Part shown: one piece after another, positions 19,350 through 23,199 of the stretch
Numbering within the stretch: the first letter of the stretch is position 1
Layout: each line of letters begins with the position of its first letter
Position numbers and translations under genes: made by a program
Notes under the pieces: generated by a model
Databases searched by the model: none
Told to the model about the DNA's origin: nothing
What the model saw: the letters and a program-made list of their open reading frames with translations, nothing else
Origin: an uncultured Acetobacteraceae bacterium
GTDB taxonomy: Bacteria > Pseudomonadota > Alphaproteobacteria > Acetobacterales > Acetobacteraceae
Assembly: GCA_937873175.1 (NCBI GenBank)
Contig: CALMVT010000027.1
Location: forward strand, 1 to 49,926
Length of the DNA: 49,926 nucleotides
Direction: 5' to 3'

Positions 19350-19381
19350 CCGCCCGCCGCGCTTTTTTCGCGAAGAACCAG

Positions 19382-19425
19382 GCGCCGCACCCTCTTGAAC
19401 CGGGGTGCGGCGCTTTCTATTTCTT
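19382..19425 (+). terminator. Intrinsic terminator of rpmE
   Basis: GCGCCGCACCC (19382-19392) and GGGTGCGGCGC (19403-19413) form a perfect 11-bp stem with a 10-base loop, followed by the T-rich run TTTCTATTTCTT at 19414-19425. It sits 32 bases after the rpmE stop. The loop and the T-rich run also contain the two boxes of a candidate heat-shock promoter, described separately. Confidence 0.85.
19394..19422 (+). promoter_or_regulatory. Candidate RpoH (sigma-32) promoter of hsp20
   Basis: CTTGAA at 19394-19399 and CTATTT at 19417-19422 are separated by 17 bases. This agrees with the CTTGAA-N17-CTATNT type consensus described for alphaproteobacterial RpoH. The upstream box lies in the loop of the rpmE terminator and the downstream box in its T-run. 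Transcription would begin near 19429, giving a leader of about 95 bases ahead of the small heat-shock gene. Confidence 0.55.
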
Positions 19426-19466
19426 CATCGTTCGAGGCGCCCATCCGGGGCCACGAAGCCTAAATC

Positions 19467-19526
19467 GAACCGGCTCGTTCGGGCGGTTCATCTACAGGAC
19501 CTTGCTTTTTGGAGGTTTATTTTATG
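19467..19526 (+). promoter_or_regulatory. ROSE-like RNA thermometer in the hsp20 leader
   Basis: Two foldable elements precede the hsp20 ATG. GAACCG (19467-19472) pairs with CGGTTC (19484-19489). Further on, CCTTGCTTTTTGGAGG (19500-19515) can fold so that CCTTGC partly occludes the GGAGG ribosome site at 19511-19515. ROSE elements of alphaproteobacterial small heat-shock genes have exactly this UUGCU anti-Shine-Dalgarno segment close to a GGAGG and melt at high temperature. The assignment rests on motif and position, not on a computed fold. Confidence 0.6.
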
Positions 19527-19994
19527 ACGTACGATTTCGCTCCGCTGTTCCGTACTGCCATTGGTTTCGACCGCATGGCCCGCCTCGCCGGCGCGGCCCA
19601 GGAAACGGTGTCGCAGTCCTACCCGCCCTATAACATCGAGCGCATCGGTGACGACAGTTATCGCCTGACTATGGCGGTGGCCGGTTTCGCGCCGGATGAC
19701 CTTGAGCTGACAGTGCGGGAGAACTCGTTGGTCATCACCGGTCGCGTCAAGGCCGAAACTGAGGCTGGCGAAGTTTTGTTCCGCGGCATCGCGGGCCGCG
19801 CGTTTGAGCGTCGGTTCGTGCTGGCTGACCACATCGTGGTCGACGGCGCCGATCTGCAAAACGGCTTGTTGCACGTCGGCCTGAAGCGTGTGGTGCCGGA
19901 GGCGCTGAAGCCCCGCCGCATCCAGATCGGCAGCGCCGCGCAGGCGACGCCGGTGATCGCGAACGACAGCAAGGACGCCTCGCAGGCTGCCTAA
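19524..19994 (+). CDS. Hsp20/IbpA-family small heat-shock protein
   Basis: 156 residues: ATP-independent chaperone that holds unfolding proteins and forms large oligomers. The N-terminus FAPLFRTAIGFDRMARL matches IbpA-type proteins, the alpha-crystallin domain covers about 35-130 (YNIERIGDDSYRLTMAVAGF to LLHVGLKRVVPE) and the C-terminal I-x-I oligomerisation motif is RRIQIG. A near-perfect GGAGG sits 8 bases before the ATG inside the ROSE-like hairpin. A heat-shock promoter candidate lies upstream and an intrinsic terminator follows, so the gene is a stand-alone heat-inducible unit by sequence. Confidence 0.95.
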   Translation: MTYDFAPLFRTAIGFDRMARLAGAAQETVSQSYPPYNIERIGDDSYRLTMAVAGFAPDDLELTVRENSLVITGRVKAETEAGEVLFRGIAGRAFERRFVLADHIVVDGADLQNGLLHVGLKRVVPEALKPRRIQIGSAAQATPVIANDSKDASQAA

Positions 19995-20043: not shown

Positions 20044-20241
20044 TCATGAACGCTTGAATACGCTGTCTGCTGCCGCGCGGTGCCCCTGCTTGCGGGTGAT
20101 CTCCTGCTCCGCCCGGACAATCTCGCTGCGCAGGTCTGCAATGTAGGCTTCCAGTTCCGCAACGCCCAATGCGTCAAGCACCGGTCGCGTAAGCTGCGCC
20201 CTTGGCCGCGGTGCCTCGTCCTCGGTCAACCCGTTCCCCAT
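20044..20241 (-). CDS. DUF1192 family small protein
   Basis: 65 residues with the DUF1192 pattern: an acidic/proline N-terminus (LTEDEAPRPRAQ), then LGVAELEAYIADLRSEIVRAEQEI, a short coiled coil, and a tail ending AADSVFKRS. The family is small, alphaproteobacterial and of unknown function. The ATG at 20241 is chosen because a strong GAGGGAG ribosome site precedes it; a longer frame upstream lacks one. It diverges from trcR with a 119-base gap. Confidence 0.85.
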   Translation of the reverse strand: MGNGLTEDEAPRPRAQLTRPVLDALGVAELEAYIADLRSEIVRAEQEITRKQGHRAAADSVFKRS

Positions 20242-20264
20242 GTGCTCCCTCGTCGACAGATTGC

Positions 20265-20294
20265 TTGACCCTCGGGACACCGCGGGTCCATATC
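20265..20294 (+). promoter_or_regulatory. Candidate promoter of trcR
   Basis: TTGACC at 20265-20270 and CATATC at 20289-20294 are separated by 18 bases, a good -35 and a weak -10. It lies in the divergent region between DUF1192 and trcR and would give a leader of about 60 bases. The spacer contains the small inverted repeat GGAC-N7-GTCC, of unknown meaning. Confidence 0.4.
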
Positions 20295-20360
20295 CCGGTT
20301 TTTCATGTTGGACCGCCTTGCCCCGCTATGGCTGCCGTGCGGCGTCGAAGGACAGAAGTA

Positions 20361-20939
20361 ATGAGCCTCCCGTTGATGCCAAAGGCTACCGCCGTTTGGC
20401 TGATTGAAAAGACCGCGTTGACGTTCACGCAGATTGCCGAGTTCTGCGGCATGCACCCGCTTGAGGTGCAGGCGATTGCCGATGGCGAGGTGGCTCAGGG
20501 CATCGTCGGCTACGACCCGATCGCCAACAGCCAGTTGACCACGGAGGAGATTAAGCGCTGCGAGGCCGATCCCGCGGCGCGTCTCAAGCTGATTCCGGCC
20601 AACAACCCGATCAACAAGCGGTCACGCGGGGCGCGCTACACCCCGGTGGCCAAACGCAACGACCGACCGGACGCCATCGCCTTCGTGATACGGAACTTTC
20701 CGCAATTGAGCGAGGCCCAGGTCATCAAGCTGCTCGGCACGACCAAGGACACCATCCAGAAGGTACGCGAGCGCAGCCATTGGAACAGCACCAACATCAA
20801 GCCGCGCGATCCCGTGATCCTGGGCCTGTGCACGCAAACCGATCTGAACGCGATGGTCACCCAGGCCAATGAGCGTTTAGCGCGCGACGGCAAGGCTGTG
20901 CCGGTTCCTCCTCCTCCCGAAGCCGATGAGGCCGCCTGA
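20361..20939 (+). CDS. trcR: TrcR-like cell-cycle transcriptional regulator (DUF1013)
   Basis: 192 residues with the highly conserved DUF1013 sequence: MPKATAVWLIEKTALTFTQ, then IAEFCGMHPLEVQAIADGE, and ARYTPVAKRNDRPDAIAF. A central helix-turn-helix-like part includes SEAQVIKLLGTTKDTIQKV. The family is nearly confined to alphaproteobacteria and is annotated as a cell-cycle regulator (TrcR); direct functional evidence is limited. The ATG at 20361 has AAGGA upstream. It is probably monocistronic, convergent with a DUF465 gene. Confidence 0.88.
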   Translation: MSLPLMPKATAVWLIEKTALTFTQIAEFCGMHPLEVQAIADGEVAQGIVGYDPIANSQLTTEEIKRCEADPAARLKLIPANNPINKRSRGARYTPVAKRNDRPDAIAFVIRNFPQLSEAQVIKLLGTTKDTIQKVRERSHWNSTNIKPRDPVILGLCTQTDLNAMVTQANERLARDGKAVPVPPPPEADEAA

Positions 20940-20981
20940 ACCAGGCAGGCGGCCCGCAGGCTTGCGCTTGGCCGATCGGGC

Positions 20982-21146
20982 TTAGCTGCGCAACCGCTCC
21001 ATCTCCTCTTTCAGCTTCAGCTTCTCAACCTTGAGCCGCGCCAACGCATCGCTATCCGGCTGGGGGCGCTGGTCCTCGTCCGCGATGCGGTGCTCCAGGG
21101 TCGCATGACGCTCCTTGAGGGTCTCGATGTGGGCCTGCAGGTTCAT
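20982..21146 (-). CDS. DUF465 (YdcH-like) small coiled-coil protein, copy 1
   Basis: 54 residues: MNLQAHIETLKERHATLEH, then RLKVEKLKLKEEMERL. The pattern of a helix, a short acidic turn and a second helix with L-K-x-x-K-L-x-L-K-E-E matches the DUF465/YdcH family of unknown function. The ATG is preceded by GGAGG. A second DUF465 gene lies 194 bases away on the opposite strand, and the two diverge. The short length hides it from many gene finders, but the ribosome site and family match make it secure. Confidence 0.85.
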   Translation of the reverse strand: MNLQAHIETLKERHATLEHRIADEDQRPQPDSDALARLKVEKLKLKEEMERLRS

Positions 21147-21340
21147 GGTGCCTCCTCGTAAATTCGTCTTGCTTAGGCCGCAGCGCCGGCTGCGCCGTCG
21201 CTGCCTGACAACGCTAATATCGCTATGCGGTCGAATGCCATATGAATCGAGAATGACACGAAAACGGGAACGACGGCGAGAGATGCTCCGCCCATCCAAG
21301 TTGCGTGGCATCCAGAAAGTCGCCGTGGTAATGGCACGGC

Positions 21341-21541
21341 ATGCTGACCGACCGTGACTCCCTGCTGCGCCAACTGCACGAACTGCGCAGCGAGCATCGT
21401 GATCTTGACACCGTGATCGCCCGGCTGTCCGAGGCCGGGACAGACCAACTGCACCTGCAGCGGCTCAAGAAGCGCAAGCTGCTGTTGAAGGACGAGCTGT
21501 CCTGGCTGGAAAGCCGGCTGATCCCGGACAACATCGCTTGA
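21341..21541 (+). CDS. DUF465 (YdcH-like) small coiled-coil protein, copy 2
   Basis: 66 residues: a helical hairpin with [19 protein letters not shown] and [19 protein letters not shown], again DUF465. Its last codons and stop (ending RLIPDNIA) are duplicated immediately downstream in the 26-bp tandem repeat. The stop and the next ATG overlap as TGATG, and after a tiny duplicated reading frame a second TGATG begins purE. It is therefore probably translated together with purE. Confidence 0.88.
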
Positions 21542-21569
21542 TGTTGGTCCCGGACAACATCGCCTGATG
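21522..21569 (+). repeat. 26-bp tandem duplication across a stop/start junction
   Basis: A 22-base segment (21522-21543) recurs with one mismatch at 21548-21569, offset by 26 bases. Each copy ends in TGATG. The duplication creates a frame of eight codons, MLVPDNIA, at 21541-21567 between the DUF465 stop and the purE start. Both junctions keep the one-base overlap of stop and start. Confidence 0.9.
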
Positions 21570-22064
21570 CCGGACTGGGCGACCGCCGCGCAGGTCGGCC
21601 TGATCATGGGCAGCCAGTCCGATTGGGCGACAATGCAGCATGCGGCCGAGGTGCTGACCCGGCTCCACGTCGCACATGAAGCCCGCATCGTGTCGGCGCA
21701 CCGGACGCCTGACCGCCTTTCGGAATACGCCAGGGCGGCCCACGAGCGTGGCTTGCGGGTGATCATTGCCGGGGCTGGCGGCGCCGCGCATCTGCCGGGC
21801 ATGTGTGCGGCCTGGACCTCCCTGCCGGTGCTGGGCGTGCCGGTCGAGAGCCAGGCGCTGAGCGGCATGGACAGCCTGCTGTCCATCGTGCAGATGCCGG
21901 CGGGCGTTCCCGTGGGAACGCTGGCGATTGGCCGGGCGGGCGCGGTGAACGCCGGGCTGCTGGCCGCCGCGATCCTGGCGCTCGCCGACCCGGCGCTTGC
22001 CGCGCGCTTGAACGACCTGCGGGCCGAGCAGACTGCCGCGGTCGCCCACGCGCCCGAGGGCTGA
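21567..22064 (+). CDS. purE: N5-carboxyaminoimidazole ribonucleotide mutase
   Basis: 165 residues, class I PurE. It isomerises N5-CAIR to CAIR in purine synthesis, acting after PurK. Phosphate and substrate-binding motifs are present: [17 protein letters not shown], the conserved histidine in SAHRTPDRL, and [16 protein letters not shown]. The start at 21567 overlaps the stop of the duplicated mini-frame. purK follows after four bases. Confidence 0.96.
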
Positions 22065-22068
22065 GGCG

Positions 22069-23199
22069 GTGCCGGCGCTGCCGCCCAACGCGACGATCGG
22101 CATTATCGGCGGCGGCCAGCTCGGCCGCATGTCCGCCATGGCCGCGGCCCGGCTGGGCTACCGCTGCCATATCCTGACGCCGGAGCCGGACAGCCCGGCA
22201 GCCCAGGTCTCGGCCGCCTGCACCTTGGGCGATTACGAGGACCCGGTCGCCTTGCGGCGCTTCGCCGAGGCCGCCGATGTCATCACCTTCGAGTTCGAGA
22301 ACGTGAGCGCCGCCGGGCTGGAGCTGTTGGCCTCCTTACGGCCTGTGCACCCCGCCCCGGCCGTGCTGCGCATCAGTCAGGATCGGGTGCTGGAAAAGAG
22401 CTTTCTGGCCGACGCCGGAGTGCCGACGGCACCGTGGCGAGCGGTGGAGACGCTTCCGGACCTGCACGCCGCCGTGGACGCGCTGGGCCTGCCGGCCGTG
22501 CTGAAAACCACCCGGCTCGGTTATGACGGCAAGGGACAGGCCGTGCTGCAGGCGCGGGAGGACATCGAACCCGCATGGGCGGCGCTCGATCCCAAGCCTT
22601 TGATCCTTGAAGGGTTCGTCAACTACGCTTGCGAGATCAGCGTCATCGTTGCCCGCGGGGCGGACGGCGCCGGCACGGTGTTTGACGCAATGGAGAACCG
22701 GCACCGCGGCGGCATTCTCGACCTCACCTTGGCGCCGGCCCGGGTGGCGCCGGGCACGGCCACCGAGGCGCAACGGGTCGCCTGGCGCGTGGCCGACACG
22801 CTGGCCATGGTCGGCCTGCTGGCGGTGGAGATGTTCGTGGACCCGTCCGGGCGCGTGCTGGTCAACGAGATCGCACCGCGCCCGCATAACTCCGGTCATT
22901 GGACCATCGACGCCTGCCCGGCGAGCCAGTTCGAGCTGCATGTCCGCGCCGTGGCCGGCCTGCCGCTGCCGCCGGGCCGGCGGCATGCGGACGCCGTAAT
23001 GAAGAACCTGGTCGGGCCGGAGGAGGCCGCACTTTGGTCGCAGGTCGTCGCGACCCCCGGCCTGATCCCGCACCTTTACGGCAAGGCAGAGGCTAGGCCC
23101 GGCCGCAAGATGGGCCATGCGACCCGGCTGTTCCCCTTGAACGGCCTACCGGACGACGAAGGCATCCGGCGGGCGCTCGGCTGCCTCGCGCCGGCCTGA
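22069..23199 (+). CDS. purK: N5-carboxyaminoimidazole ribonucleotide synthase
   Basis: 376 residues, ATP-grasp enzyme that carboxylates AIR with ATP and bicarbonate, forming N5-CAIR for PurE. The N-terminal GIIGGGQLGRM loop, the FEFENV motif, the central ATP-grasp (LKTTRLGYDGKGQAV and LILEGFVNYACEISVI) and the C-terminal VNEIAPRPHNSGHWTIDAC are all diagnostic. The start is a GTG four bases after the purE stop, so the pair form one unit. Confidence 0.96.
   Translation: MPALPPNATIGIIGGGQLGRMSAMAAARLGYRCHILTPEPDSPAAQVSAACTLGDYEDPVALRRFAEAADVITFEFENVSAAGLELLASLRPVHPAPAVLRISQDRVLEKSFLADAGVPTAPWRAVETLPDLHAAVDALGLPAVLKTTRLGYDGKGQAVLQAREDIEPAWAALDPKPLILEGFVNYACEISVIVARGADGAGTVFDAMENRHRGGILDLTLAPARVAPGTATEAQRVAWRVADTLAMVGLLAVEMFVDPSGRVLVNEIAPRPHNSGHWTIDACPASQFELHVRAVAGLPLPPGRRHADAVMKNLVGPEEAALWSQVVATPGLIPHLYGKAEARPGRKMGHATRLFPLNGLPDDEGIRRALGCLAPA

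Follow-up and report, generated by a model that had tools for sequence, protein, structure and literature searches.

One element between rpmE and hsp20 in an uncultured Acetobacteraceae bacterium very probably serves, judging from comparison with its relatives, both as the intrinsic terminator of rpmE and as an RpoH promoter of hsp20, with the promoter nested in the terminator. Acetic-acid bacteria and their relatives show the same arrangement in dozens of genera. The dual role had been proposed in the first-pass annotation of the window (the whole stretch of DNA analysed, 49,926 nucleotides), and the proposal gained strong support from conservation, covariation, the adjacency of rpmE, the presence of rpoH, and the CTTG-type promoters predicted for clpB and dnaK. 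A nested terminator-promoter followed by a thermometer-like leader is, in our judgement, the best explanation of the locus as a whole, and one that we hold with considerable confidence.

A predicted hsp20 promoter within the hairpin downstream of rpmE

In the window, rpmE, encoding ribosomal protein L31 (19125..19349, + strand; stop codon 19347-19349; Pfam PF01197, E 6.4e-26), is followed by hsp20, encoding a small heat-shock protein (19524..19994, + strand; Pfam PF00011, E 3.9e-17), and 174 nt separate the rpmE stop from the hsp20 start. The predicted terminator hairpin of rpmE (19380..19415, + strand), called from the sequence, its fold and covariation in relatives, begins thirty nt after the stop. 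Its arms GCGCCGCACCC (19382-19392) and GGGTGCGGCGC (19403-19413) form an 11-bp perfect Watson-Crick stem, which reaches 14 pairs (19380-19415) when wobble G-U and A-U ends are counted. The loop is CTTGAACC, 8 nt, and TCTATTTC comes after the stem. When the strand from 19360 to 19430 was folded, the z-score was -5.7, and equal stability was found in 0/200 shuffles.

The loop contains CTTGAA (19394..19399, + strand), the predicted -35 box of an RpoH-type hsp20 promoter, which is also found in relatives. The terminator U-tract TTTCTATTT (19414..19422, + strand) takes in the putative -10 box CTATTT (19417..19422, + strand) and is broken there by C and A; the box lies at a spacer of 17, a spacing likewise seen in relatives. 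Transcription of hsp20 would start 6-8 nt past this box, at 19428..19430 on the + strand. The 11-bp perfect stem, the CTTGAA in the loop, the CTATTT in the T-run and the 17-base gap between them had all been described in the first-pass annotation, and its description and coordinates proved correct.

An exact search for CTTGAA-N16-17-CYATNT in the 6.39-Mb genome of the organism gave 1 match, the hsp20 site, and the reversed control gave 2. The promoter motif by itself is thus not significant in this genome, and the case is built on its place, its conservation and comparison. Poor conservation of the boxes in close relatives had been named as a finding that would speak against the idea; we found both boxes in all four genomes of the genus that our searches yielded (L001 and L003-L005, with CCATTT as the -10 box in L004) and in many genera.

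We also surveyed terminator-like hairpins in the window and in loci L003-L111 and L237-L296, some of which overlap or repeat. Among 673 such hairpins, CTTG was in or beside the loop in 59 and CTTGAA in 26. The results showed that 25 of these 26 were the rpmE-hsp20 element (22 distinct), and the remaining one (L292) lies, by our reading, within the rpmE coding sequence. The idea that CTTGAA is just a loop of preferred sequence was rejected on the basis of this survey together with the CTTGAA promoters that have neither a hairpin nor an upstream rpmE.

Recurrence of the nesting across Acetobacteraceae

We searched for hsp20 loci in 60 relatives, in 249 genomes of the family, and in named genomes (the best 80 of 593 loci). 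A relative of hsp20 was found at E <= 1e-35 in 217 of the 249 family genomes. The 152 family genomes that we examined came from the better-scoring matches and are not a random sample (30 from the search of 60 relatives, 22 from the search of 249 genomes, and 100 others). We defined a locus as rpmE-adjacent when rpmE lies <=450 nt upstream of hsp20, and as fused when a stem of >=9 bp has CTTG in or at its loop.

By these definitions, rpmE was directly upstream of hsp20 in 127 of the 152 genomes, and a stem of >=9 bp around the -35 box was found in 84/127 rpmE-adjacent loci, compared with 3/25 other family loci (Fisher p 6e-7). Longer stems gave the same picture: >=10 bp in 78 and >=12 bp in 69 of the 127 adjacent loci, against 1 and 0 of the 25 others. 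When each of 69 genera (a hand assignment based on the genome handles) was represented by a single genome, 37/54 adjacent loci and 2/15 others were fused. We also compared 108 distinct loci, made up of 30 from the search of 60 relatives and 78 distinct named loci from the best 80 of 593, with L002 and two duplicates omitted; here stems of >=10 bp were present in 30/50 adjacent and 1/58 non-adjacent loci. The fused named genomes include Acetobacter orientalis (L043), Komagataeibacter europaeus (L045), K. swingsii (L047) and Roseomonas acroporae (L044), as well as Gluconacetobacter azotocaptans (L039), where the -10 box was not called.

Among the 125 adjacent family loci with a callable promoter, the -35 box was CTTGAA in 111, its CTTG letters being conserved partly by construction because the promoter finder requires CTTG; the spacer was 17 in 91, 16 in 31 and 18 in 3. 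The two adjacent loci without a callable CTTG (L117 and L148) are among the 43/127 that fail the stem test, and this number of adjacent loci below the threshold indicates that nesting is not essential. The strict test misses bulged stems, as in four near-misses of similar sequence with a stem of 8 (L020, L212, L224 and L226). A looser RNAfold criterion, pairs enclosing the -35 box, passed 109/125 adjacent loci but also 14/24 others; because GC-rich DNA satisfies it too easily, we kept to the strict test.

The rpmE-hsp20 pair also occurs in other families of the class (loci L271, L288, L292 and L293; genomes G036 and G051). A search of other Alphaproteobacteria for the same overlap had been suggested at the outset; of the four loci read, L271 is fused, whereas L288, L292 and L293 keep separate signals.

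A total of 129 Hsp20 proteins were placed on a quick tree, with a midpoint root and many weak forks. All 38 fused loci fell on one side, with the Acetobacteraceae, whose 73 rows comprise these 38, 22 adjacent unfused loci and 13 without rpmE. On this tree the fused label requires at least 21 changes, and well-supported branches force 6 of these, so fusion has arisen or broken several times. A single short protein does not distinguish gain from loss, and some noise comes from the 9-bp threshold.

Covariation of the stem around the fixed -35 box

The flanks of the fixed -35 box carry little sequence information at most positions, and their pairing is nonetheless kept. We aligned two register groups of loci. 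In the first (22 rows, 20 distinct), 94.2% of cells were paired, and the covariation score was 0.741 versus 0.258 for shuffled alignments; two-sided changes occurred at 10/12 pairs, a count matched by 36/500 shuffles. In the second (23 rows, 21 distinct), 87.7% were paired, the covariation score was 0.550 versus 0.203, and two-sided changes occurred at 12/12 pairs, matched by 0/500 shuffles. When the partner was shifted by 1-3 columns, pairing fell to 48-55% in both groups.

Since both groups had been picked for stems of >=9 bp, we repeated the test without stem selection, using chimeras in which the 5' flank of one species was joined to the 3' flank of another. Over the 125 adjacent loci, the native stem averaged 10.9 bp, whereas the chimeras averaged 7.5 and the shuffles 5.6. 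The corresponding values for 24 non-adjacent loci were 5.2, 4.6 and 4.8 bp. These sequence comparisons showed two separate constraints under selection, one on stem pairing and the other on the letters of the boxes.

The hairpin as the probable terminator of rpmE

In the 84 fused loci, the hairpin lies at a median of 30 nt downstream of the rpmE stop. A separate strong terminator upstream was called in 3 of these 84, compared with 11 of the 41 unfused adjacent loci that have a promoter; in those 11 (for example L009, L017, L126 and L214) the terminator comes before the promoter. No separate strong terminator was called in the other 30/41, where rpmE must end in some other way, which counts against the terminator reading. 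The U-tract of the window, TTTCTATTTC, has 7 T of 10 and is interrupted. Within the first 8 nt of the tract, 4-6 T were found in 60 of the 84 fused loci and 1-3 T in 24, and such short or broken tracts also weigh against a terminator. The window element had a positive d'Aubenton-Carafa-type score, as did 82% of the 84 fused loci.

We then considered 29 rpmE loci from across the class. In 25 of them hsp20 is not within 300 nt, and CTTGAA was absent from all 21 terminators called among these 25, so that a CTTGAA loop as a feature of any rpmE terminator was rejected. The other four have hsp20 within 300 nt; the terminator is separate in L288, L292 and L293, and L271 is the fused one.

The weak U-tracts with 1-3 T would also suit a hairpin that acts as some other transcript-end or leader element, or as an inverted-repeat protein site, the T-run then being the -10 box only. 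We regard this reading as very unlikely: the hairpin is found mostly where rpmE precedes it, just past the rpmE stop and where other terminators are missing, and the positive scores of the window element and most fused loci speak for termination. That the arms vary while their pairing is retained argues against a protein site in particular.

The probable RpoH-type promoter

The genome encodes RpoH (TIGR02392, 369 bits, above the cut-off). The E. coli sigma32 consensus is printed as NNCTTGAA-N13-18-CNCCATAT (PMC3669281), and that of S. meliloti RpoH1 is given as CTTGAA-N16-CCTATAT (PMC8844928). Compared with the E. coli and S. meliloti sequences as given in these sources, the boxes of the window are similar in the -35 CTTGAA, in a -10 of the CCATNT/CYTATNT kind, and in a spacing of 16-17 nt. 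CTTGAA with C[CT]A..T at 16-17 nt was also found ~90-150 nt upstream of hsp20 in many Rhizobiales and Rhodobacterales loci without rpmE, and such promoters usually have no hairpin.

Other heat-shock genes of the family were also scanned. CTTG promoters scored >=11 upstream of clpB in 10/24 loci with the start found (shuffles 0.8%). Upstream of dnaK, CTTGNN-N17-ATACAT was present in 21/29 loci, and only 4/29 scored >=11. The groES loci (L237-L266) have a highly conserved CTTGAC in 26/29, usually with a CTA[GC][AC]T-like -10, unlike the hsp20, clpB and dnaK types; their CTTGAC-N17-CTAGAT may equally be a sigma70 promoter, and other control may apply. The idea that RpoH promoters generally sit in hairpins was rejected, as stems of >=9 bp were present in 1/24 clpB and 5/29 groES leaders.

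Taken together, the hsp20 boxes probably form an RpoH-type promoter. They could instead be read as a sigma70 promoter, to which TTGAAC-N17-TATTTC is a partial match, and the sigma70 and RpoH promoter sets of S. meliloti are reported to overlap, with 298 sites (PMC3616915). We consider this reading improbable because no sigma70 match reached the scan threshold, and because CTTGAA with C[CT]A..T recurs upstream of hsp20 across the class.

As a side observation, a stem of >=9 bp surrounds CTTG in 5/29 dnaK loci, with 10 bp in the genome of the window itself (L350), 16 bp in L328 and 14 bp in L354, and no T-tract. The gene upstream of the dnaK promoter in these three loci is apparently grpE, as judged by eye. 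These hairpins are possibly a second, weaker case of a nested -35 box.

A ROSE-like thermometer candidate in the hsp20 leader

The first-pass annotation had overlooked a further layer, the hsp20 5' leader of ~95 nt (19429..19523, + strand), in which a covariance model points to a ROSE-like RNA thermometer candidate. Three hairpins are predicted on the + strand. Hairpins I (19431..19457) and II (19467..19489) come from the consensus fold of 28 leaders and together have compensatory changes at 16/20 predicted pairs. In hairpin III (19497..19518), CCTTGCT (19500-19506) faces the Shine-Dalgarno sequence GGAGG (19511-19515); this hairpin is absent from the RNAalifold consensus of the 28 leaders. 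The CCTTGC..SD motif was found in 142/149 family leaders, and the broader T[TC]GC[TC]..SD motif in 147/152 family and 76/77 class-wide leaders, compared with 17% and 24% of shuffles. U[UC]GC[UC] facing the Shine-Dalgarno sequence is the motif of ROSE thermometers.

We ran the leader covariance model (R1) on 59 sources, namely the window, L002 and 57 of the best 80 of 593 named loci. In 42 of them by our count, the window included, a match at E <0.05 ended at hsp20, and conservation of the leader (19429-19526 in the window) reaches beyond the family; the 81.9 bits of the window follow by construction, the window being in the model. No Rfam match to ROSE or another thermometer was found, whatever threshold was used, in the window or in sets of 20, 18 (E<=2) and 10 loci. 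With ViennaRNA, whose energy model has no non-canonical pairs, the median unpaired probability of the Shine-Dalgarno sequence over 60 leaders was 0.23 at 25 C and 0.30 at 50 C, and 0.23 and 0.26 in shuffled leaders; that of the window leader went from 0.175 to 0.194. In view of the missing Rfam match and the little computed opening, we term the leader ROSE-like only. As a candidate, it would add translational heat control independent of the overlap, and model R1 could be the starting point for a new thermometer family or for the extension of an existing one.

Two further Rfam matches, ctRNA_pGA1 on the element (E 0.19, far under gathering) and sbcD on L228, were taken as chance hairpin matches. 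The genome also has a second hsp20 (L002), a paralogue at 45-47% identity with a CTTGCA site and no rpmE found upstream; its leader ends CTTCGCTCGCAGGAGG before the start region, and the leader model gives no match to it.

Proposed mechanism and the question of coupling

We propose that at the end of the rpmE transcript the two arms would pair as a GC-rich hairpin, and that this hairpin and the short U-tract behind it would stop transcription. Read as DNA, the element would have its -35 box (CTTGAA) in the loop and its -10 box (C[CT]ATTT) in the U-tract, with the 3' arm serving as spacer. The two sets of signals fit because the 3' arm and the first U residues span ~16-17 bases, which is the spacing of RpoH; a promoter that remains near the end of rpmE can therefore come to be enclosed by a hairpin. 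The RpoH promoter would start the hsp20 mRNA ~6-8 bases past the -10 box, and in this mRNA the last leader hairpin would cover the Shine-Dalgarno sequence. Heat would then probably work twice, through RpoH on initiation of the mRNA and through the leader on translation.

Whether the two functions are also coupled is a separate question. Neutral compaction, in which terminator and promoter share DNA owing to the short gap between rpmE and hsp20 and have no regulatory link, agrees with the nested anatomy and is a rival over coupling only; we see the arguments for and against it as evenly balanced. The distances favour it, as only 14/84 fused loci have >=45 nt free between the rpmE stop and the hairpin (median 30 nt), and in the 11 unfused loci where a separate terminator was called the gap is always >=198 nt. 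The at least 21 changes of the fused label on the quick Hsp20 tree, 6 of them forced, also suit it. However, fusion is also seen at long gaps: in L207 (328 nt) and L209 (400 nt) no separate terminator was called, and L026 (312 nt) combines fusion with a separate terminator. Repeated fusion or loss over dozens of genera with differing stems moreover exceeds one frozen accident, although coupling is not required by that. Compared with the two coupled schemes, interference and reinitiation, compaction without coupling is the cheapest option.

Interference had been put forward in outline in the first-pass annotation. In this scheme, polymerases that reach the rpmE terminator and pause there would occupy the region from -35 to -10 and lower RpoH initiation in fast growth, and the hsp20 promoter would be released once ribosomal-protein transcription drops in heat shock. 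The geometry, by which termination is expected right at the -10 box, is consistent with this putative effect, the rest of which we infer; the 43/127 adjacent loci that manage without overlap by the stem criterion count against it, and we consider it rather doubtful. A termination-coupled sigma switch seems to us more improbable still. Here the polymerase ending rpmE would stay over the hsp20 promoter, capture RpoH in heat and restart in place, and ribosomal-protein traffic would then be an instant local polymerase supply for a heat-shock gene. According to PMC6978380, most intrinsic terminations in vitro leave the E. coli polymerase bound to the DNA, and restart at a downstream promoter rises from 37% to 55% on sigma70 addition; its authors state that retention and reinitiation after termination have not yet been observed in vivo. 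An archaeal polymerase is reported to recycle from terminator to promoter in vitro (PMC2253867). In the nest, the hsp20 promoter sits where the polymerase is expected to stop.

Relation to known systems

The nested terminator-promoter with its leader resembles Pseudomonas ibpA (PMC3669281) and rhizobial sHSP genes (PMC3989490), which are described as having an RpoH promoter followed by a ROSE-type thermometer. Shared with these are the CTTGAA -35 box, a spacer within the printed range and a short hairpin-bearing leader; unlike them, as they are described in these sources, the hsp20 promoter downstream of rpmE sits inside the terminator hairpin of the upstream gene. In Gluconobacter oxydans, likewise an acetic-acid bacterium, a ROSE element was predicted by Rfam upstream of the Hsp20 gene GOX_RS07835, whose start site was undetected (PMC5756330). 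The present leaders differ from it in having no Rfam ROSE match, and the overlap is unmentioned in the part of that report concerned with this gene. As in the system of PMC6978380, a polymerase at a terminator would be able to restart if it held or gained sigma; that system is E. coli sigma70 in vitro, and no natural terminator-promoter nest is described in the sections relevant here. Terminator-promoter elements of yeast are treated in PMC10298055.

At the E. coli frd-ampC junction, neighbouring units share a terminator/promoter region, and the terminator, which acts as an attenuator, is located downstream of the ampC promoter. The rpmE-hsp20 junction is alike in sharing such a region and differs in that the promoter lies within the terminator itself. 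The component parts are already known, and our searches of open-licence papers found no description of a terminator-embedded heat-shock promoter or of its conserved nesting. The rpmE-hsp20 element is apparently a natural, family-wide case of one DNA stretch acting as terminator and promoter, with constraints that covariation can separate. It makes an in vivo test possible of termination and initiation at one site, and of whether they hinder or help each other; related species supply natural fused and split versions as controls.

Neighbouring genes

Past hsp20, at 20044-23199 of the window, lie a DUF1192 gene on the - strand and then the trcR cell-cycle regulator gene; beyond trcR come two DUF465 small-protein genes in opposite directions, followed by purE- and purK-like genes. 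Sequence resembling the DUF1192 gene was seen by eye downstream of hsp20 in some relatives.
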